IMG/VR virus record: IMGVR_UViG_3300030099_004443
Span: 1-20,688 of that record
DNA: 20,688 nt
DNA from: a virus
Strand: one strand, 5' to 3'
The notes beneath the pieces were generated by a model. The model saw only the letters and a program-made list of their open reading frames with translations, was not told the DNA's origin and made no database searches. Position numbers and translations under genes: made by a program. Shown here piece by piece: positions 1,956-13,698 of this stretch; the stretch's first letter is position 1; every line of letters starts with the position of its first letter.

Positions 1956-1981
1956 ATTATCACGCAATTGTCACGCTTTTT
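1956..1981 (-). promoter_or_regulatory. Candidate leftward promoter-like element
   Basis: On the minus strand this reads AAAAGCGTGA, nine bases, then GATAAT. It lies about 30 bases upstream of the ATG at 1928. The spacing matches the six-copy ACAAYWYAAATACGA-N9-GATAAT element on the other strand, but the upstream box differs. The string AAAAGCGTGAC recurs on the plus strand at 14330-14340. The promoter role is inferred. Confidence 0.3.
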
Positions 1982-2888
1982 ACTTTTTTCTAGGTTCAGA
2001 CGCTAAATACCAATTTTTATACGTCTCTCTTTTCAACATTATATATTTTAAATAATGATCTACTTTCTTTTTCCAGTTCTTATCAACTGCAGGGTTTATT
2101 ATACCTGATTTGTAACTTGAAAAGCAATAGTTTATAAACTTTTTAGCTTGTACTTGCTCTTTGAATATATGATTATTTATACAATAAAATGATCCTCTTT
2201 GTATATTGTTCCAAACATCAATTGGTTGTATATACTTACCCAATACAGCTGCGTATATACAGCTTTCACTTATATGTGTTGTATATACATTTTTTGCCTT
2301 TTGCAAAAAGTAATACATATCTGCGTTTCTAGGTAGTATACACTCTTCGCCAAAAAAATCTTTTAACTCACCAATTATTTGATGTGTAGTTATAGGGTGT
2401 GGTTTAAAATAAACATTATCACCGTGTTGTTGTTTAATATGTTTTAATTTATTTAAACAAACGTTTTCCCTAACTTTGTTTGAACCTGGTAGTACAACTA
2501 AGTTATCTTTGGCTGTATAATCTTTAGTAACATCTTCTCGATCAATATATTTATTACTATCGCTTTTAACTACTTTATTTATAAACCATGAAGAATAATC
2601 TAAAGTTGGATAACCAATTTCTTCTTTATCATACCAAGCATCTATCATTTGCTCGTTTCTTAACTTATAGTTTAATGGCTGTAAATATAAACAACCAGCA
2701 TATTCTGTATAAGCTAGAGTTTTAAAATATGGCATTTCTTCTGCCATAACATCATAAGCACATTCAATGCCTATTTCGGCACATCGTCTTATTAAATAAC
2801 CTTCTACTTGTTCTAAATCGTAAAGGCTTTTGGTTTTTTTAAGAGGACCTATACGTTTGTCTAGCTCCTTTTTATTAAACATTTCCAT
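1980..2888 (-). CDS. Putative GT-B-like glycosyl/phosphoglycosyl transferase
   Basis: The protein has 302 residues. The C-terminal half carries a run of motifs: LPGSNK (133-138), a lysine-rich helix, YFKPHP (160-165), then THISES (204-209) and AAVLGK (213-218). KPHP followed by a Ser/Glu-containing loop and a small-residue helix is the pattern of capsule-type transferases. These include the sialyl-, Kdo- and glycerophospho-transferases of the GT-B fold, in which KPHP sits in the nucleotide-donor domain. No membrane segment is visible, so it should be cytoplasmic. It is the last gene of the fibre region, directly downstream of the 661-residue Thr/Ser/Asn-rich repeat protein. That suggests it may decorate the virion fibre, though modification of host polysaccharide is an alternative. 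Donor and acceptor cannot be read from the sequence. Confidence 0.6.
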   Translation of the reverse strand: MEMFNKKELDKRIGPLKKTKSLYDLEQVEGYLIRRCAEIGIECAYDVMAEEMPYFKTLAYTEYAGCLYLQPLNYKLRNEQMIDAWYDKEEIGYPTLDYSSWFINKVVKSDSNKYIDREDVTKDYTAKDNLVVLPGSNKVRENVCLNKLKHIKQQHGDNVYFKPHPITTHQIIGELKDFFGEECILPRNADMYYFLQKAKNVYTTHISESCIYAAVLGKYIQPIDVWNNIQRGSFYCINNHIFKEQVQAKKFINYCFSSYKSGIINPAVDKNWKKKVDHYLKYIMLKRETYKNWYLASEPRKK

Positions 2889-2942: not shown

Positions 2943-4928
2943 CTACCTACCCGAGCTAAATGGCTGCTCTCCAAGTTGACCAGCTTTTGTAGAAGGGTTG
3001 TACCACGTTGTATTAGTAACTGTATTTGTGCTAAACGTAGTGTTAAAAGTAGTTGTAGTAGTAAATGTAGTTACTGTGGTAGTACTAGTGTTAAAAGTTG
3101 TTGTTCTAGTTGTATTAAAAACTGTAATCGTATTAGTACTAGTGTTAAACACAGTGTTTGTTGACGTGTTAAACGTTGTGGTAGTACTTGTTGTCGTGTT
3201 AAAAACTGTAGTAGTAGTTGTACTCGTATTAAACGTAGTTACTGTTGGTAACGATGTATTAAAAGTTGTAACTGTACTAGTGCTAGTATTATAAGTTGTT
3301 GTTCTAGTAGTAGCAGTAGTTGTATTATAAACAGTTATCGTAGGATGTGACGTGTTAAATGTTGTTACAGTTGATGTAGCTGTGTTAAACGTCGTTATAG
3401 TTGTAGTACTTGTATTAAATACAGTGTTTGTGCTAGTATTAAACGTAGTAGTAAACGTTGTAGACGTATTAAACGCTGTTATAGTAGTTGTTGACGTCTG
3501 TGTACTAGTATTAAATGTTGTTGTATAAATAGTAGTAGTATCTCTAGCAGTACCTCTAGTTGTAGTTGTACTAGTATTATAAGCAGTTGTAAAAGAAGTT
3601 GTAGTGCTTTTACTTGTATTAAACGTTGTTGTAGTGCTAGTACTAGTATTAAATGTTGTCGTATATGTTGTTATAGTTCCTATACTTGTGCTAAACGATG
3701 TATTATAAAAACTTGTATAAGCTGTTATAGTAATAGTGTTAGTACTTCTACTTGTATTTCTAAATATCTGATCAGTGCTTAATGTGTTTCTAGAAGTAGC
3801 AAATGTTGTCGTAGTGCTTCGACTAGTAGCAAACGTTGTAGTTGTTGATCTAGTGGTAGTAGTACTTGTATTATAAACTGTAGTTGTTGAAAATACAGTA
3901 GTAGTACTTCTTTGCTCAGTAGTACTTCTACTTGTACTAAATGTTGTTGTTGTACTTTTACTAGTACTAACAGTTGTTACTCTACTTGTAGATGTTACTT
4001 TACTAGTATTATATACCGTGCTTGTAGTATATACTGTAGTAGTTGATCTTTGCTCTGTTGTATTTCTATTAGTAGAAAAAGTAGTTGTAGTATTACGACT
4101 TGTAGAAAACGTTGTGTTAGTGCTTTTTGTTGTAGATCTACTAGTATTAAATACAGTTGTTGTTGTAAAAGCAGTTACCGTGCTTGTATTAAAAGTTGTT
4201 GTAAATGTTGTAGATGTATTAAATACAGTTGTTGTAGAATAAGTTGTTGTTGTTGTAAAAGCAGTTGTAGTTGTAAACGCTGTAATTGTACTAGTATTAA
4301 ATATAGTAGTTCTACTAGTTCCGTATGTTGTAGTAGTTGATCTAGTTGTAGTTTTACTTGTTCCAAATGTAGTAGCAGTTACATATGTTGTTGTTGTATT
4401 TCTTTGTTCTACTGTATTTCTAGAAGTATTAAAGGTAGTTGTTCTACTTGTTTGAGTTAATGTACTCGTATTAAAAGTAGTTGTTCTACTTGTGCTTGTT
4501 CCTCTTGAAGTTCCAAATGTAGTAGTCGTACTTTTTGATGTTCCTCTACTCGTTGCAGTGTTTCTATTAGTTTGTGTTGATCTATCAGTAACACGACCAG
4601 TACTAAAAACAGTTGACGTAGTATATGCTGTCGTCGTACCTCTTTCTGTTAGATAAGCTGTTGATGTTGAATAAACTGTAGGTGTAGACCTTGTAGTATT
4701 ATAAACAGTTGTAGTGTTGTAAGCAGTTGTAGTTGGTTTACTAGTGTTATACGAAGTAACATAAGTTGTGTTAAAGTTAGTTGTTCTACTAGTTTCATAT
4801 GAAGTCGCATGTATCGTAGAAGTAAAACGTTGAGTATTAGTAGCCGTAGCCGTACCATACTGCGTTATTGTAGCAAACGCCGTCGACGTATTAAACTGAG
4901 TAAGTGTATTTCTAGACGTTAGAGGCAT
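2943..4928 (-). CDS. Giant Thr-rich repeat protein 1, probable fibre/adhesin
   Basis: Of 661 residues, roughly the first 640 are low-complexity units dominated by Thr with Ser, Asn, Phe/Tyr, Val/Ile and Arg. The core is (T)TFNTS followed by R/T/K-S-T, and FNTS alone occurs 19 times. Cys is absent, Gly and Pro are rare, and the acidic residues are nearly confined to a recurrent EQR triplet. The spacing between successive FNTS-like cores is mostly 10, 8 or 6 residues, suiting an alternating beta-strand fibre. The last ~22 residues (from WYNPSTKAG) are non-repetitive and could be a tip or trimerisation cap. The ATG at 4928 overlaps the methyltransferase gene upstream by 17 bases, so the two are probably coupled. 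Location among fibre genes argues for a virion surface fibre. There is no direct evidence of assembly. Confidence 0.65.
   Translation of the reverse strand: MPLTSRNTLTQFNTSTAFATITQYGTATATNTQRFTSTIHATSYETSRTTNFNTTYVTSYNTSKPTTTAYNTTTVYNTTRSTPTVYSTSTAYLTERGTTTAYTTSTVFSTGRVTDRSTQTNRNTATSRGTSKSTTTTFGTSRGTSTSRTTTFNTSTLTQTSRTTTFNTSRNTVEQRNTTTTYVTATTFGTSKTTTRSTTTTYGTSRTTIFNTSTITAFTTTTAFTTTTTYSTTTVFNTSTTFTTTFNTSTVTAFTTTTVFNTSRSTTKSTNTTFSTSRNTTTTFSTNRNTTEQRSTTTVYTTSTVYNTSKVTSTSRVTTVSTSKSTTTTFSTSRSTTEQRSTTTVFSTTTVYNTSTTTTRSTTTTFATSRSTTTTFATSRNTLSTDQIFRNTSRSTNTITITAYTSFYNTSFSTSIGTITTYTTTFNTSTSTTTTFNTSKSTTTSFTTAYNTSTTTTRGTARDTTTIYTTTFNTSTQTSTTTITAFNTSTTFTTTFNTSTNTVFNTSTTTITTFNTATSTVTTFNTSHPTITVYNTTTATTRTTTYNTSTSTVTTFNTSLPTVTTFNTSTTTTTVFNTTTSTTTTFNTSTNTVFNTSTNTITVFNTTRTTTFNTSTTTVTTFTTTTTFNTTFSTNTVTNTTWYNPSTKAGQLGEQPFSSGR
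3009..4925 (-). repeat. Coding repeat: Thr-rich FNTS units
   Basis: This is the repetitive part of repeat protein 1. The basic unit is about 30 bases, but copies differ at synonymous Thr, Ser and Asn positions. Conservation is therefore clearer in protein than in DNA. On the plus strand the same stretch appears as GTA/GTT-rich sequence with long spurious open frames. Confidence 0.8.
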
Positions 4929-5463
4929 TGCTATAAACTTTATTTATTAACGCACAAACTATTACACTGTCCTGATCTTTTAACTGAGGAGTGTAGTTGT
5001 GCAACATTGTACCATTTGAATTAAACTGATCTGTGTGGTAATAGTTTTCTATTAAAACACAGTCATACTTTTTAGAGCCTTGATACGACTCAACATCTGA
5101 TGTTGTTATTATATTTATATCTTCATGTAAAAAATCTACATACGAAGTCAACTCAGCATCATCTTCAACAACATCTATACTATCATAGTTTTTAAATTTT
5201 TGAATATAAGTAGGTATAGTACCTAATCCTAACCCAACAACTAGAACATCACCGTAAACTAAATTATCAAAACAAGTATTAACATTGCACTCTTCACAGT
5301 CATTAAAATACGCGACTAAACATGGCTCATGGTTCTCCTGACCACCATACTTATTTTTAAATGTAAGTACAGACACAGGAACCTCAGATCCATTAAAATT
5401 ATCAACCTTTTCTACTTTAAAGTTAGTTGCGTTTATTTCTGTAATTAAGTTTTCGTTTATCAT
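4912..5463 (-). CDS. Class I SAM-dependent methyltransferase-like (spermidine-synthase-like)
   Basis: This 183-residue protein has a Rossmann signature. A strand and glycine loop (LVVGLGLGT, about 74-82) is followed by a helix. A second strand ends in acidic residues (DVVEDD, 97-102) where SAM ribose is usually bound. A third strand, YDCVLIEN, lies at 133-140. The first motif and the hydrophobic-acid second motif resemble the spermidine synthase-like branch, so a true methyl transfer role is not certain. A pair of cysteine-containing segments (CEECN, near 56-60) precedes the domain. The start overlaps the upstream methyltransferase gene as ATGA, and the end overlaps the start of repeat protein 1. 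This places the gene inside the fibre cassette and suggests it acts on a fibre or its precursor. Confidence 0.6.
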   Translation of the reverse strand: MINENLITEINATNFKVEKVDNFNGSEVPVSVLTFKNKYGGQENHEPCLVAYFNDCEECNVNTCFDNLVYGDVLVVGLGLGTIPTYIQKFKNYDSIDVVEDDAELTSYVDFLHEDINIITTSDVESYQGSKKYDCVLIENYYHTDQFNSNGTMLHNYTPQLKDQDSVIVCALINKVYSNASNV

Positions 5464-6029
5464 AATTCTTTAACAGGTATCTTATAAATTAAATTATTGT
5501 AGTAAGCATTTTTAGGTGGCTTAATGTTAATATCATAAAACTTAACATTATTCCAACCCATAGTGTGCTCTTCGCTACCTAAATGATTCCACCAACTAAT
5601 AATACCTTTTTTTAATTTAGTTTCACAAAATTGTTTAAATTTTGGTAAATCATCGTCTGCGTATGTATCTATTAATATTACACTATATTCACCATCTTTT
5701 ACATTTATCCATTTGTCTTCGTGTAGTATAACATTTGGTTTGTTTTTAGCCCAAGACCTTAATCTTGGTATTATATCTTTATGGTTTTCACATATAGTGT
5801 GTGAAGCAGGTTTTTTAGCTTGTATTGCATCAGATAATATACCCATGCCAAAACCACACTCTAATACATGATCACCCGGCTTAACACATAGATCAGCTAT
5901 TTTATTCATAATCGGTGTTTCCCAGTCCATCATAACTTGCCAGTATTGACCGCGAAAAGGATTTTTCCAAATTATCTTCTCGTGGTCAAACTGTAAGTCT
6001 GCTTTTTGATATGCTTCTTGCAGTGTCAT
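5460..6029 (-). CDS. GAMT/RMT2-like N-methyltransferase
   Basis: This 189-residue protein closely follows the layout of guanidinoacetate methyltransferase and the related type IV arginine methyltransferases. DWETPIM lies at 35-41, the SAM loop LECGFGMGI at 56-64, an acidic strand end at CE (80-81), RLRSW at 89-93, and LIDTYAD at 119-125. In that family the Glu of WETP and the Asp of the DTY motif hold the guanidino group. Both are present here (E37, D121), so a guanidino or arginine side chain is a plausible substrate. The gene sits between the two arginine-containing Thr-repeat proteins, three bases after repeat protein 2 and overlapping the next methyltransferase by ATGA. Methylation of fibre arginines is an inference; a small-molecule substrate is possible. 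Confidence 0.68.
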   Translation of the reverse strand: MTLQEAYQKADLQFDHEKIIWKNPFRGQYWQVMMDWETPIMNKIADLCVKPGDHVLECGFGMGILSDAIQAKKPASHTICENHKDIIPRLRSWAKNKPNVILHEDKWINVKDGEYSVILIDTYADDDLPKFKQFCETKLKKGIISWWNHLGSEEHTMGWNNVKFYDINIKPPKNAYYNNLIYKIPVKEL

Positions 6030-6032
6030 ATC

Positions 6033-8339
6033 TTATGGAGCACCAGGTCCACCTGGATCACTACCACCACCGCCTCGACCGCCACCGCCGCCAGGTCCAC
6101 CGCCAGTACAGTTCAGTACACTAATTACAGTACCATTTACACCAAACTGAGCGGCAACTGTAGCAACCACATTTGCATTACCACCAGTGAATAACGATAT
6201 ACCATAGTTACCAGCAATTAAAGGACTTGTTGCAGCACTGTTTACATATAAGTGGTCACCAACAGCAATTACAACCGCAGTTTGACCAGAGTCTGGTGTT
6301 CTATATACTAACGTATGAGTTGCATTTTGACAGTTTGAAGCAGCAGAGAAAGTTGTGCTTGTTCTTGCTCTATTTTGTATTGGAACAGTAGTGTTATATA
6401 TTGTAGTTGTATTTCTTGAAGTACCAAACGTATGAGTTGTAGTAGTACTTTTAGAAGTTTGTGTTATTGTATTTGTTTGGAATATCGTGTTAGTAGGTGA
6501 CGTAGTAGTAGTAGACGTATTATATGTCGTACCTCTAAGTGTTCCTCTACTTGTGTTTCTAGACGTACCAAATGTAGTAGTAGTGTTTCTACTTTCACCA
6601 GTACTTCTACTTGTTCCAAACGTAGTAGTAGTGTTTCTACTTTCAGTAGTGTTATTACTAGTACCAAATACAGTGCTTGTTGTTCTGCTTTCACCAGTGT
6701 TTCTACTAGTATTAAACGAGCTAGTGTATGTTGTTGTTGTAGCAAACACAGTGTTTGTAGCAAATACAGTTGTGTAAGCAGTTGTTGTGCTTCTACTAGT
6801 ACTAAATGCTGTAATGGTATCAAACACAGTAGTTCTAGAAGTGTTGTAAGATGTACTTGTTCCAAACACAGTAGTTCTAGAAGTATTAAATGTTGTAGCA
6901 GTAGTATACGTAGTAAGTGTAGTTCTTGACTCAGTAGTATTTCTTGAAGTGTTAAACGTTGTTGTAAACGTTGTAACAGTAGTTGTACTAGTGTTGTAAG
7001 CAGTAACTCTACTAGTTGATATAGTTGTTGCTCTACTTGTTGTTGTTGATCTTGTTGTCGTTGTTGATCTGCTTTCTAAAGTACTTCTACTAGTTGATAT
7101 TGTTCTTGTTGTTGTTCTACTGGTAGAAACAGTAGTAGTCCTACTAGTTGTAGTAGATCTTGAAGTTGCAAACGTAGTAGTAAACGTAGTTACAGTAGCG
7201 GTTGTAGTATTAAACACCGTGTTTGTAATAGTTGAAGTATTAAATACCGTATTAGTTGTATATACCGTTGTTGTAGATCTAGACTCAGTAGTGTTTCTGC
7301 TTGTTTGATATACTGTTGTTGTAGCAAACACAGTTGTTGTACTTGTATTGAAAACAGTACTTGTAGAAGTACTTGTGTTAAATGCTGTTATAGTACCATA
7401 TACAGTTATAGTAGCTCTACTAGTCTGTGTTGTTGTACTTGTATTATAAGCTGTAGTAAACGATGTAGTTGTTGATCTAGTAGTATTAAACGTTGTTGTC
7501 GTACTAGTAGATGTGTTATACTCGGTTATTAATGTATTTATAGTATTTCTTACAAATGTAGAAAATGTTGTATTATAAACAGTTGTTGTGTCTCTAGCTG
7601 TACTAGTACTTGTTGTTGTGCTTGTGTTAAACACGGTTGTAGTAGCTCTAGATGTTATTCTACTTGTACTAACTACTGTAGTTGTTGATCTACTAGTACT
7701 AAATGTTGTAGTTGTAGATCTAGTAGTTGTTGTACTAGTATTGTAAGAAGTTGTAAATGATGTATTAAAAGCAGTTATAGTTATAGTATTAGTTATTCTA
7801 CTTGTAGATACAACAGTATTATACACTGTTTGTGTATTTTTACTTGTTAATATAGTTCTAGTTGTAGTTCTGCTAGTTGAAACTGTAGTGTTTCTGTTTG
7901 TTGAAAAGGTTGTTGTGGTTGATCTACTTGTTGCATATGTAGTATCTGTACTTCTAGTTGTATTAAACGTTGTAGTTGTACTAATACTTGTAGGTACTGT
8001 TGTACCAAAGCTAGTTGTAGTTGATGTGTTATATGCTGTAGTAGTAGATCTAGTTGTGTTAAATGTTGTGGTTGTTTCTCTTGAAGTAGAATATACAGTT
8101 GTTGTACTTTTAGATGTATTGTACGCTGTTAATGTAGCTCTAGAAGTACTTATTGTAGTATTTCTGTTAGTTGAAACTACAGTGCTTGTAGCTCTAGATG
8201 TAGAAAACGTAGTAACTCTGCTTGTAGAAAATACAGTGGTAGTCGACCTAGATGTACTAGTCGTCCTATTTGTACTTCTACTAGTGTTAAACGTAGTAGT
8301 AGTATTCCAGAAGTCTATTCTATTCCACAACCACCTCAT
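6033..8339 (-). CDS. Giant Thr-rich repeat protein 2 with C-terminal domain and Gly-rich tail
   Basis: The protein has 768 residues. After a short aromatic N-terminus (MRWLWNRIDFW), residues ~10-663 are the same kind of Thr-rich units as in repeat protein 1, with more Arg (TSRST) and an ESR triplet in place of EQR. A globular region then runs from about 665 to 744, bounded by Cys670 and Cys744 and containing a VGDHLYVNSA strand pair. It resembles small beta domains seen at the ends of adhesins from Bacteroidetes and their phages. The protein ends in a Gly-rich stretch and PGGPGAP, recalling glycine-rich phage tip proteins that contact receptors. I infer a long fibre shaft with a receptor-binding tip. 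It is the first gene of the modification cassette and has an A/T-rich leader without a Shine-Dalgarno sequence. Confidence 0.65.
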   Translation of the reverse strand: MRWLWNRIDFWNTTTTFNTSRSTNRTTSTSRSTTTVFSTSRVTTFSTSRATSTVVSTNRNTTISTSRATLTAYNTSKSTTTVYSTSRETTTTFNTTRSTTTAYNTSTTTSFGTTVPTSISTTTTFNTTRSTDTTYATSRSTTTTFSTNRNTTVSTSRTTTRTILTSKNTQTVYNTVVSTSRITNTITITAFNTSFTTSYNTSTTTTRSTTTTFSTSRSTTTVVSTSRITSRATTTVFNTSTTTSTSTARDTTTVYNTTFSTFVRNTINTLITEYNTSTSTTTTFNTTRSTTTSFTTAYNTSTTTQTSRATITVYGTITAFNTSTSTSTVFNTSTTTVFATTTVYQTSRNTTESRSTTTVYTTNTVFNTSTITNTVFNTTTATVTTFTTTFATSRSTTTSRTTTVSTSRTTTRTISTSRSTLESRSTTTTRSTTTSRATTISTSRVTAYNTSTTTVTTFTTTFNTSRNTTESRTTLTTYTTATTFNTSRTTVFGTSTSYNTSRTTVFDTITAFSTSRSTTTAYTTVFATNTVFATTTTYTSSFNTSRNTGESRTTSTVFGTSNNTTESRNTTTTFGTSRSTGESRNTTTTFGTSRNTSRGTLRGTTYNTSTTTTSPTNTIFQTNTITQTSKSTTTTHTFGTSRNTTTIYNTTVPIQNRARTSTTFSAASNCQNATHTLVYRTPDSGQTAVVIAVGDHLYVNSAATSPLIAGNYGISLFTGGNANVVATVAAQFGVNGTVISVLNCTGGGPGGGGGRGGGGSDPGGPGAP
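6351..8312 (-). repeat. Coding repeat: Thr-rich FNTS/TSRST units
   Basis: This is the repetitive shaft of repeat protein 2. It shares uncommon stretches with repeat protein 1 (NTITITA, ARDTTT, SFTTAYNTSTTT) in a different order, indicating duplication and shuffling between the two genes. Confidence 0.8.
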
Positions 8340-11458: not shown

Positions 11459-11898
11459 TATCTTTCGTTATCATTAATCATATCATCAATGGCTTTATTA
11501 TATACCTTGTCTGTATATGATTTGTTAGTAAAAAATATATTTCTTTCTGAAGTGGGTATATCCTCTTCCCCTAATAAGATTCTGTATATTCTGGATATAA
11601 GTTGACTACATTTAAATGATGTTTTGAATATACTGTATTTAATTGAAGTGCGGTTACGATGTCTCCAAACTTCGATCCAACCGTCTCGTCGAAGTCGCTC
11701 CCAGCGGTTTTTATCCCAACTGTAAGTATAAGAGCCATCTATAAAATTATTACGCGTAAATCGCGATTTGCAATCTAAATAGATTAAAAGTTCTAAGTCA
11801 GCATCCTTTAGGCCATAAGTTTTACAGGCCCATTTACGTACGAGCCTGTAATACTTTAATAAACCAATATCTCTTAAATCAGATGCACTTAGTTTCAT
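11458..11898 (-). CDS. Putative winged-helix DNA-binding protein
   Basis: This 146-residue protein is rich in Arg, Lys and Trp. An initial helical part (LRDIGLLKYYRLVRKWACKT) is followed by DLELLIYLD, then a WDKNRWERLRRDGWIEVWRH segment that could be the recognition helix and wing of a MarR-like fold. The next segment, SIKYSIFKTS, would be the second wing strand. I recall related small proteins beside structural genes in T4-like and marine phages, but no proven role. It overlaps groES by ATGA upstream and the holin by TAATG downstream, so it is part of the chaperonin-lysis transcript. It could regulate late transcription. The assignment is tentative. Confidence 0.5.
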   Translation of the reverse strand: MKLSASDLRDIGLLKYYRLVRKWACKTYGLKDADLELLIYLDCKSRFTRNNFIDGSYTYSWDKNRWERLRRDGWIEVWRHRNRTSIKYSIFKTSFKCSQLISRIYRILLGEEDIPTSERNIFFTNKSYTDKVYNKAIDDMINDNER

Positions 11899-12152
11899 TC
11901 GACTATAACTATATCACCATACTTGATAACATAGTATATACTATTGTCGAAACTAATACCATGACCAGAGTGTTTATTATACCAAACTACATCACCTTCA
12001 TTTACTCCCTCTACTAATTCACCCTTGCTAATTACTTTACCTTTTAGGTATTTATTTTCATTATCCTGATGATCAGCTATAATAAAACCCTTATTTTCTG
12101 GTTCTTTGTTTTTTATTTTATCAACGACTACATAATAACTAACTGCTCTCAT
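11895..12152 (-). CDS. groES: Co-chaperonin GroES-like
   Basis: This 85-residue protein is a little shorter than the usual ~97. An N-terminal strand is followed by a loop holding GFII (22-25), in the position of the hydrophobic tripeptide by which the mobile loop docks on GroEL. Then come KGKVISKG, VNEGDVVWYNKHSG and a terminal strand (KYGDIVIVE), matching the barrel order of GroES. It would cap the chaperonin ring and close the folding chamber. The start lies 14 bases inside the end of groEL, so translation is coupled. The gene order, groEL before groES in the direction of transcription, is the reverse of the usual cellular operon. Confidence 0.82.
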   Translation of the reverse strand: MRAVSYYVVVDKIKNKEPENKGFIIADHQDNENKYLKGKVISKGELVEGVNEGDVVWYNKHSGHGISFDNSIYYVIKYGDIVIVE

Positions 12153-13698
12153 TTGTTCTCATATTAGATATTATACAATCAGCAGACATTACCGTTTTAG
12201 CTACAGACACTGCATTTATTAAAGCTGCTTTAGTTACCAATACTGGATCTATTATACCTGCTTTAACCATATTAACTTTATCACCTGTTACTACATTTAA
12301 ACCTTCACCAAATTTTAATTTACTAGGACACTCTAAGTTAGCGTTCTCTAATATAACATCAAATGGTTTGGTTATAGCCTTCAATAATAAAGCCTCGCCA
12401 TCGTTGTCTGGTACTATAGTTGTCGATGCGTTTAATAAAGCTACACCACCTCCAGCAACAATACCTTCTTGTAAAGCTGCTTTTGTAGCGTATATAGCGT
12501 CTTCAACTCTGTCTCTTTTTTCTTTTAACTCAACTTGTGAGTTAGCTCCAACAAAAACTATACCAACATTACCTGATAATATTGCTATTCTTTCCTTTAA
12601 TTTTTTCTTTATATAAGGGTTTTTGTCTTCTTTTTTAATTAAAGCTTTAACGTGATCTATACGATCTTGCAAAGCCTCTATGTTTTTACTTACTGTTAAT
12701 ACTGTGTTTTTGTTATCAGTAACACATTTAACAGCTTGGCCTAAACAATTTTCGTCTAACAACTCAATATCATCGCCTAATTCTTCATTTATAAGTTTAG
12801 CACCAGTAACAATAGCAAGATCTTCAACAGTATCTTGTTTTGTTGGTCCAAAACCAGGCGCATCAATAATATTAAGTTTTATATTCCCTTTTACGTGATT
12901 AGCTATTAGTGCTGACTTAGGTGAGTCTTCTACTTTACCAACAATAACTAAAGGTCTTTTTTGTTTAATAACATATTCTAATATGTTCTGTATACTTCGT
13001 ATAGTTCTTATAGGTGAATATGATATTAATATATAAGGATTATCTAGTTCAGATAATTCTCTGTCTTTATCAGTTATTAGGTAGTTTGATTGTAGAGCTG
13101 AATTTATTTGCACACCATCAACTACATCAGCATAGGTTTTTTCGGTTTGTGAGTCTTCAAATAAAACTACACCGTCTTTACCTACTTTATTATACGCGTC
13201 AGCTATTATACTACCAAGCTCTTTGTCATTGTTGCAGCTAATAGAAGCTACATTGTTTAACATTTTGCCTGATACATTTTTTGCATGTTTTTGTAAGAAT
13301 TTAACTACTTTATCACATGCTGACTCAATACCTTCTTTTATTTGTCTTTGTGTTAAGTCACTATTTAGCATCTCGTGTAAAAGTGATTGAGCAAGTACGG
13401 TAGCTGTTGTTGTACCGTCACCTGCTTCTTTCACCGTGTTCTTTGCAGCTTCTTTTATAAGCGTTGCGCCTATATTTTCAACCGGATCATATAAGACAAC
13501 AGATTCAGCTACTGTTACACCGTCTTTTGTAATCACCGGTTTGCCCATTGCGTCTTCGTATATTACACAACGGCCTGAAGCTCCTAATGTAGATTTAACT
13601 GCCGTAGCTAGTTTATCTACTCCACTTATTATTCTATTTTTGCCGTCATCACCAAAGTTAAGATCTTTGACGATCTGGCTAGGTTGATTATATTCCAT
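12139..13698 (-). CDS. groEL: Phage chaperonin GroEL
   Basis: This is a 519-residue group I chaperonin. Nucleotide-site motifs are intact: TLGASGR (37-43), ITKDG (56-60), DGTTT (94-98), the ATPase Asp in VEDA (D400) and VAGGG (414-418). The apical domain spans about 180-370. The protein ends in NMRTNESS and lacks the Gly-Gly-Met tail of cellular GroEL, which lines the cavity floor. The phage-type TLGASGR replaces the usual TLGPKGR. With the adjacent groES it should form a complete folding machine, probably for capsid or the large fibre proteins encoded downstream on the same strand. The leader is A/T only, and no Shine-Dalgarno sequence is visible. Confidence 0.96.
   Translation of the reverse strand: MEYNQPSQIVKDLNFGDDGKNRIISGVDKLATAVKSTLGASGRCVIYEDAMGKPVITKDGVTVAESVVLYDPVENIGATLIKEAAKNTVKEAGDGTTTATVLAQSLLHEMLNSDLTQRQIKEGIESACDKVVKFLQKHAKNVSGKMLNNVASISCNNDKELGSIIADAYNKVGKDGVVLFEDSQTEKTYADVVDGVQINSALQSNYLITDKDRELSELDNPYILISYSPIRTIRSIQNILEYVIKQKRPLVIVGKVEDSPKSALIANHVKGNIKLNIIDAPGFGPTKQDTVEDLAIVTGAKLINEELGDDIELLDENCLGQAVKCVTDNKNTVLTVSKNIEALQDRIDHVKALIKKEDKNPYIKKKLKERIAILSGNVGIVFVGANSQVELKEKRDRVEDAIYATKAALQEGIVAGGGVALLNASTTIVPDNDGEALLLKAITKPFDVILENANLECPSKLKFGEGLNVVTGDKVNMVKAGIIDPVLVTKAALINAVSVAKTVMSADCIISNMRTNESS

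Follow-up and report, generated by a model that had tools for sequence, protein, structure and literature searches.

A GAMT-fold methyltransferase of ocean phages that probably acts on a single arginine in the glycine-rich tail of a neighbouring fibre or tip protein

What would a phage methylate with an enzyme built like guanidinoacetate N-methyltransferase (GAMT)? The question is raised by a 20,688-nucleotide stretch of viral DNA (IMG/VR virus record IMGVR_UViG_3300030099_004443), referred to here as the window. It encodes a GAMT-like methyltransferase within a cassette of Thr-rich repeat proteins. In most of the many ocean phages that carry a relative, the enzyme gene travels with one arginine in a neighbouring protein; therefore, the enzyme probably methylates that arginine and does not take part in creatine synthesis. 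The favoured reading, to which a probability of about two in three is assigned, is a virion-dedicated phage protein-arginine N-methyltransferase of the GAMT/RMT2 type whose substrate is the single arginine in the Gly-rich tail of its neighbour.

The methyltransferase gene (5460..6029) is a complete ORF of 189 amino acids that starts with ATG. This ORF had been singled out by a sequence-only reading of the window and proved to be real, but it is encoded by the minus strand; read on the plus strand, the same interval has many stops. The gene is part of an operon-like series on the minus strand, in the order Thr-rich protein 1, methyltransferase, companion, Thr-rich protein 2 and 302-aa protein. 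Thr-rich repeat protein 1 (768 aa, 6033..8339), a putative fibre or adhesin, is encoded directly before the methyltransferase with a gap of 3 nt, and has a small C-terminal domain and a Gly-rich tail carrying the proposed substrate. This tail, GGGPGGGGGRGGGGSDPGGPGAP, comprises residues 746–768 (6036..6104), and its Arg755 (codon 6075..6077, context GGGGGRGGGGSDPGGPGAP) is the candidate for the methylated residue on the basis of co-variation. The companion gene (4912..5463) codes for a 183-aa protein with a predicted class-I methyltransferase-like fold; its start and the methyltransferase stop share 4 nt (ATGA). The C-terminus of Thr-rich repeat protein 2 (661 aa, 2943..4928) reads GQLGEQPFSSGR, without a Gly-rich RG tail.

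The 302-aa protein (1980..2888, minus strand; phrog_26179) is a conserved cassette marker of unknown function that supplied a tree for the co-variation test. It is strongly conserved in cassettes of the window type, and a homologue with about 26% identity is encoded in Caulobacter phage Cr30 between fibre-region and neck genes (L188). Its FKPHPI..H motif suggests that it may be a GT-B/capsule-type enzyme. The window also encodes a terminase and, on the minus strand, a phage GroEL (519 aa, 12139-13698), a GroES (85 aa, 11895-12152) and a second GroES-type protein (193 aa, 873-1454), the last of which matches the PHROG named co-chaperonin GroES (E 1e-14).

When all PDB sequences were searched with phmmer, the top matches of the enzyme were four GAMT sequences (1.5e-11 to 4.8e-11), beyond which no PDB match fell below 0.15. 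A family profile of 15 sequences matched GAMT at 1.1e-27 over GAMT residues ~40–172; the alignment ends at 172–175, the C-terminal part of GAMT is unmatched and the phage ORF is 40 or more residues shorter. The best fold matches of an AlphaFold2 model (pLDDT 95.4, from an alignment of 89 sequences) were human GAMT with SAH (3orh, E 6e-11) and rat GAMT with guanidinoacetate (1xcj), at TM 0.78–0.79 normalised to the query. The motifs that the sequence-only reading had described as retained, along with a GAMT-type fold, are present exactly as W36-E37-T38-P39, L56-ECGFGMG-63 (motif I) and D121-T122-Y123, and the searches and the model bear out the fold. W36 and E37 never vary among 84 distinct relatives (84/84), and D121 is kept in 81; the GFGM SAM motif, E81 and W107 are likewise invariant across very diverse sequences. 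W36, E37 and D121 align with W44, E45 and D134 of rat GAMT. In the rat structures, E45 binds the guanidino group. The aspartate, D134, accepts the proton in the GAMT reaction (PMC12471008). No family in Pfam, NCBIfam or PHROGs was matched above cut-off, the most being weak KsgA/RrnaAD-type matches to the SAM core, and no PRMT model (double-E, THW loops) in Pfam or NCBIfam was matched. Judged by sequence and predicted structure, the window ORF is a GAMT-fold methyltransferase, with a class-I SAM fold and GAMT as its nearest structure.

Enzymes of this kind had been supposed to be rare in phages. This holds for annotated phage records, of which 1 in 50,697 encodes a relative (a 634-kb phage), but not for environmental phages, in which a profile scan identified 546 IMG/VR stretches encoding confirmed relatives. 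At least four confirmed relatives were found among the 84,980 prokaryote genomes scanned. One of them, a cyanobacterial GAMT-like gene (L032:4920-5585), is located ~1 kb from an AGAT/SxtG-type amidinotransferase gene (6578-7687; phmmer to SxtG 1e-163), which is the context expected for a true GAMT and possibly belongs to a bacterial creatine or guanidino pathway. A GAMT-like gene in Patescibacteria diverges from an adjacent gene of the ornithine/arginine decarboxylase family (L034:643-1731, 1857-2516). In phages L024–L027, the fusion partner of the GAMT-like domain is DUF3310 (PF11753, E 1.5e-13); these genes lie outside the fibre regions seen, and their substrate may differ.

In most of the phages examined, the enzyme gene has a fibre, adhesin or tip gene as its immediate neighbour, and at least four arrangements were distinguished; the labels 'fibre', 'tip' and 'S74-like' are inferred from gene order, sequence and domain content. 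In several unrelated phage groups, the genes are packed so closely that stop and start overlap or a few bases separate them. Group 1, to which the window belongs, has the order Thr-rich protein 1, enzyme, companion and Thr-rich protein 2. Group 2 has Thr-rich protein 1, an enzyme fused to a Hint-like domain, and Thr-rich protein 2. Group 3 consists of a long fibre whose end is S74-like, the enzyme and a tip protein of ~190 aa that contains a BACON domain, and group 4 of a fibre, the enzyme and a ~225-aa CBM96-like tip protein. The BACON carbohydrate-binding domain scored above the Pfam cut-off and the CBM96-like assignment below it.

Several other features of these neighbourhoods were recorded. 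Many GAMT-like domains in L035–L105 (e.g. L070:5989-7023) carry a C-terminal Hint/intein-like fusion (TGNHPMIV ... ELVIGDKL ... NYFVN), which is matched weakly by Pfam Intein_splicing (E 0.017) and is partly degenerate, with TGNQ in some. The C-terminal half of these ~350-aa fused enzymes was considered as a companion methyltransferase, a candidate rejected when alignment identified it as the Hint/intein-like domain. The companion itself, in the window as in L125, L129, L130 and others, is without the WE, GFGM and DTY signature and stays in the cassette whether the GAMT-like gene is present or not. Its nearest profile match is the plantazolicin methyltransferase BpumL (E 4e-4). A close GAMT paralogue was rejected, as the SAM core alone aligns and the model matches generic class-I enzymes, and the companion is left as class-I-like. 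In a T4-like group (L011–L022), the enzyme is flanked on one side by a 571–576-aa gene, itself preceded by a gene with collagen-like GXQG repeats, and on the other by a block resembling neck and tail-sheath genes. No clear Gly-rich RG tail was found beside the enzyme gene in L011–L022, L024, L030 and L041.

In groups 1 and 2, the upstream protein has a Gly-rich end with a single arginine, in other members reading GGGGGGCSRGCI. In group 3, it is the downstream protein, unrelated to the Thr-rich family, that terminates in this way (GGGGGGRGNAAP, GGGGGGRGEP and similar), and the downstream protein of group 4 contains a GRGGG-type loop in its interior. A neighbour with such an arginine motif accompanies 128 of 147 distinct enzyme genes, and the motif is found in almost all of 66 further distinct downstream proteins collected by a separate remote query. 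A further Gly-tail arginine that does not adjoin the enzyme gene was seen in a ~155-aa protein (L056:10092, L092:4522, L196:3384) with an invariant GGGSSRGKNN tail, encoded ~3–4 kb from the enzyme or tip gene.

Enzyme-less phages with the same neighbours were gathered by queries independent of the enzyme, namely the 302-aa protein, the tip body without its tail and the fibre end. The enzyme was absent from 26 whole control contigs, the lone weak match being the companion; these contigs are fragments, and 'enzyme absent' is therefore valid for the sequenced part only. Cultured phages, also tried as controls, yielded no tip-protein homologues. Among unique tails of the Thr-rich family, an arginine followed by G or N was present in 30 of 30 with the enzyme, and a comparable Gly-tail arginine in none of 25 without it. 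A raw count of 'RG' gave 28 tails with and 2 without the motif beside the enzyme, against 2 and 23 in its absence (p 4e-11). The two matches without the enzyme (L151, L174) fall in another, non-Gly domain; the misses with it (L089, L105) both read GGCFRNCI. The closest enzyme-less relatives share a homologous pre-tail domain, and the RGGGG stretch is absent from L125, L129, L130, L131 and L170. On the tree of the 302-aa protein, enzyme and Gly-tail arginine agree in 53 of 53 phages of the Thr-rich family, with three changes.

The same co-occurrence was found in a second, non-homologous neighbour family. The BACON tip proteins have the tail arginine motif in 21 of 21 cases with the enzyme and in 0 of 6 without it, where the tails read GGGKGGGGEP, GGGKDGGEGLDP, PPPPGGGGRP, PPPPGGGGMP and GGIPPGGGGGEAP. 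On the tree of the tip bodies, all 29 agree, and five switches, all in the same direction, are forced by supported branches. In the CBM96-like tip family, an RG-type motif was present in 30 of 30 with the enzyme and also in 11 of 23 without it. This family was rejected as independent evidence of co-variation, because the motif also occurs without the enzyme and independent pairs are mostly the same in motif; there the motif may be structural. Thus, in the Thr-rich and BACON families the enzyme and a Gly-tail arginine of the neighbour occur together or are absent together, and in the CBM96-like family the relation is one-way. The Fisher p values (4e-11 and 3e-6) ignore the relatedness of the phages and for that reason over-count; the independent switches amount to five on the tip tree, with branch support, and one to three more on the tree of the 302-aa protein. 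Because the first tails had been seen before the tail criterion was set, the weight rests on the enzyme-less controls and the tip family.

Among the alternatives, a protein that binds the RG tail as an assembly factor, chaperone or pseudoenzyme, needing the arginine for binding and leaving it unmethylated, is improbable. Fibre genes often adjoin dedicated assembly factors, and the same cassette holds a class-I-fold companion without the catalytic signature. Against this, the invariance of GFGM, W36, E37, E81 and W107, together with the near-invariance of D121, in sequences otherwise very diverse suggests selection for catalysis. It is quite improbable that the target is a small molecule with a guanidino group or an arginine of a host protein, with the RG tail hitch-hiking in the cassette. 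Substrate pockets are unreadable from sequence, and tail-fibre regions commonly exchange cassettes; possible joint exchange of whole cassettes is also a point against the favoured reading. However, proteins that are not homologous share the R-G motif, on the upstream side of the enzyme in one group and on the downstream side in another, and within each group the motif switches with the enzyme.

An auxiliary metabolic role has been proposed in print. In a global ocean AMG catalogue, viral GAMT (K00542) was the gene most enriched over cellular homologues (85.4-fold) and was interpreted as creatine synthesis in low oxygen (PMC11360552); matched by description, this marine virus 'GAMT' is probably the same family or one overlapping with it. 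A true guanidinoacetate N-methyltransferase supplying creatine to the infected cell would fit that annotation, the GAMT fold and the retention of both acidic residues that grip guanidinoacetate. Yet the gene is wedged between fibre and tip genes in several unrelated phage groups and co-varies with a neighbour's arginine, and GAMT profile similarity stops near residue 172–175. None of 28 contigs with the enzyme, all of them fragments, yielded an amidinotransferase homologue in a search that had no independent positive control, whereas the cyanobacterial L032 gene has one close by. A PF00217 search for creatine kinase carries no weight, since the control set gave no match either. Creatine metabolism is disfavoured as very improbable, and the evidence on the enzyme argues against the published 'creatine AMG' label.

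The sequence-only reading had proposed protein arginine methylation with the TSR repeats of the adjacent proteins as substrate. These proteins are indeed rich in TSR (29 units in the 768-aa and 15 in the 661-aa protein flanking the gene), and the proposal of an arginine in an adjacent virion protein gained support from the tail co-variation. TSR coverage of Thr-rich proteins had a median of 4.4% (range 0.2–11.5) beside the enzyme and 5.2% (1.8–14.4) in phages without it. The repeats were rejected as the target, a version now scarcely credible, because Arg/TSR content does not track the enzyme, enzyme-bearing L068 has a coverage of 0.2%, and the BACON and CBM96-like neighbours of groups 3 and 4 are without TSR-type repeats.

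Under methylation of the tail arginine, the favoured reading, the neighbouring fibre or tip protein would first be translated, after which the enzyme would bind the single arginine in its flexible Gly-rich (RG/RGG-like) tail. E37 and D121 would hold the guanidino group, and the methyl group would be transferred from SAM to the arginine; the chemistry of GAMT and RMT2 suggests the delta (internal) nitrogen as the acceptor. The modified residue would then lie where the adhesin is exposed at its end, and there it would most plausibly tune receptor contact, or protect or assemble the tip. Extended beyond the window, the evidence leans, somewhat less firmly, towards a widespread and misread class of phage protein-arginine methyltransferases, probably delta-N-specific, each of which methylates one Gly-tail arginine of its own adhesin.

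If this is correct, ocean phages bring their own enzyme for methylating protein arginines site-specifically, and its target is the portion of the virion that probably contacts the host; among phages, it would be the first arginine methyltransferase dedicated to modifying the virion. Only very recently has mass spectrometry revealed methylated arginines in phage proteins, in phages that reportedly are not known to carry methyltransferase genes (PMC13288928). The AMG most enriched in viruses in the global ocean survey (PMC11360552) would then be a virion-maturation gene and not one of creatine metabolism. The prediction specifies one residue per phage.

Compared with known systems, the phage enzyme resembles GAMT (PDB 1xcj, 3orh) in the conservation of WETP/E45, DTY/D134, LExGFGM and W116 (rat numbering). 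It differs in being shorter (189 versus about 236 aa), in having no profile match to the C-terminal part of GAMT, and in its location in virion-fibre cassettes, with no AGAT found nearby in 28 fragmentary contigs. RMT2, which is related to GAMT, is functionally the nearest system as a GAMT-like enzyme acting on protein arginine. RMT2 is a type IV protein arginine N-methyltransferase that makes delta-N-monomethylarginine (PMC4860837). Type IV activity has been reported only from yeast and plants (PMC11721204), and no phage member of the class was found described in the literature searched. Arginines in RGG/RG motifs are preferred PRMT targets (PMC8141346), and the phage tail motif resembles these PRMT1-type substrates, a parallel that carries no evidence of kinship; unlike them, each phage tail has one arginine rather than many, and the enzyme is of a different family. 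Finally, in contrast to the creatine interpretation of marine viral GAMT (PMC11360552), the gene neighbourhood and the co-variation with the neighbouring protein point to methylation of a virion protein.
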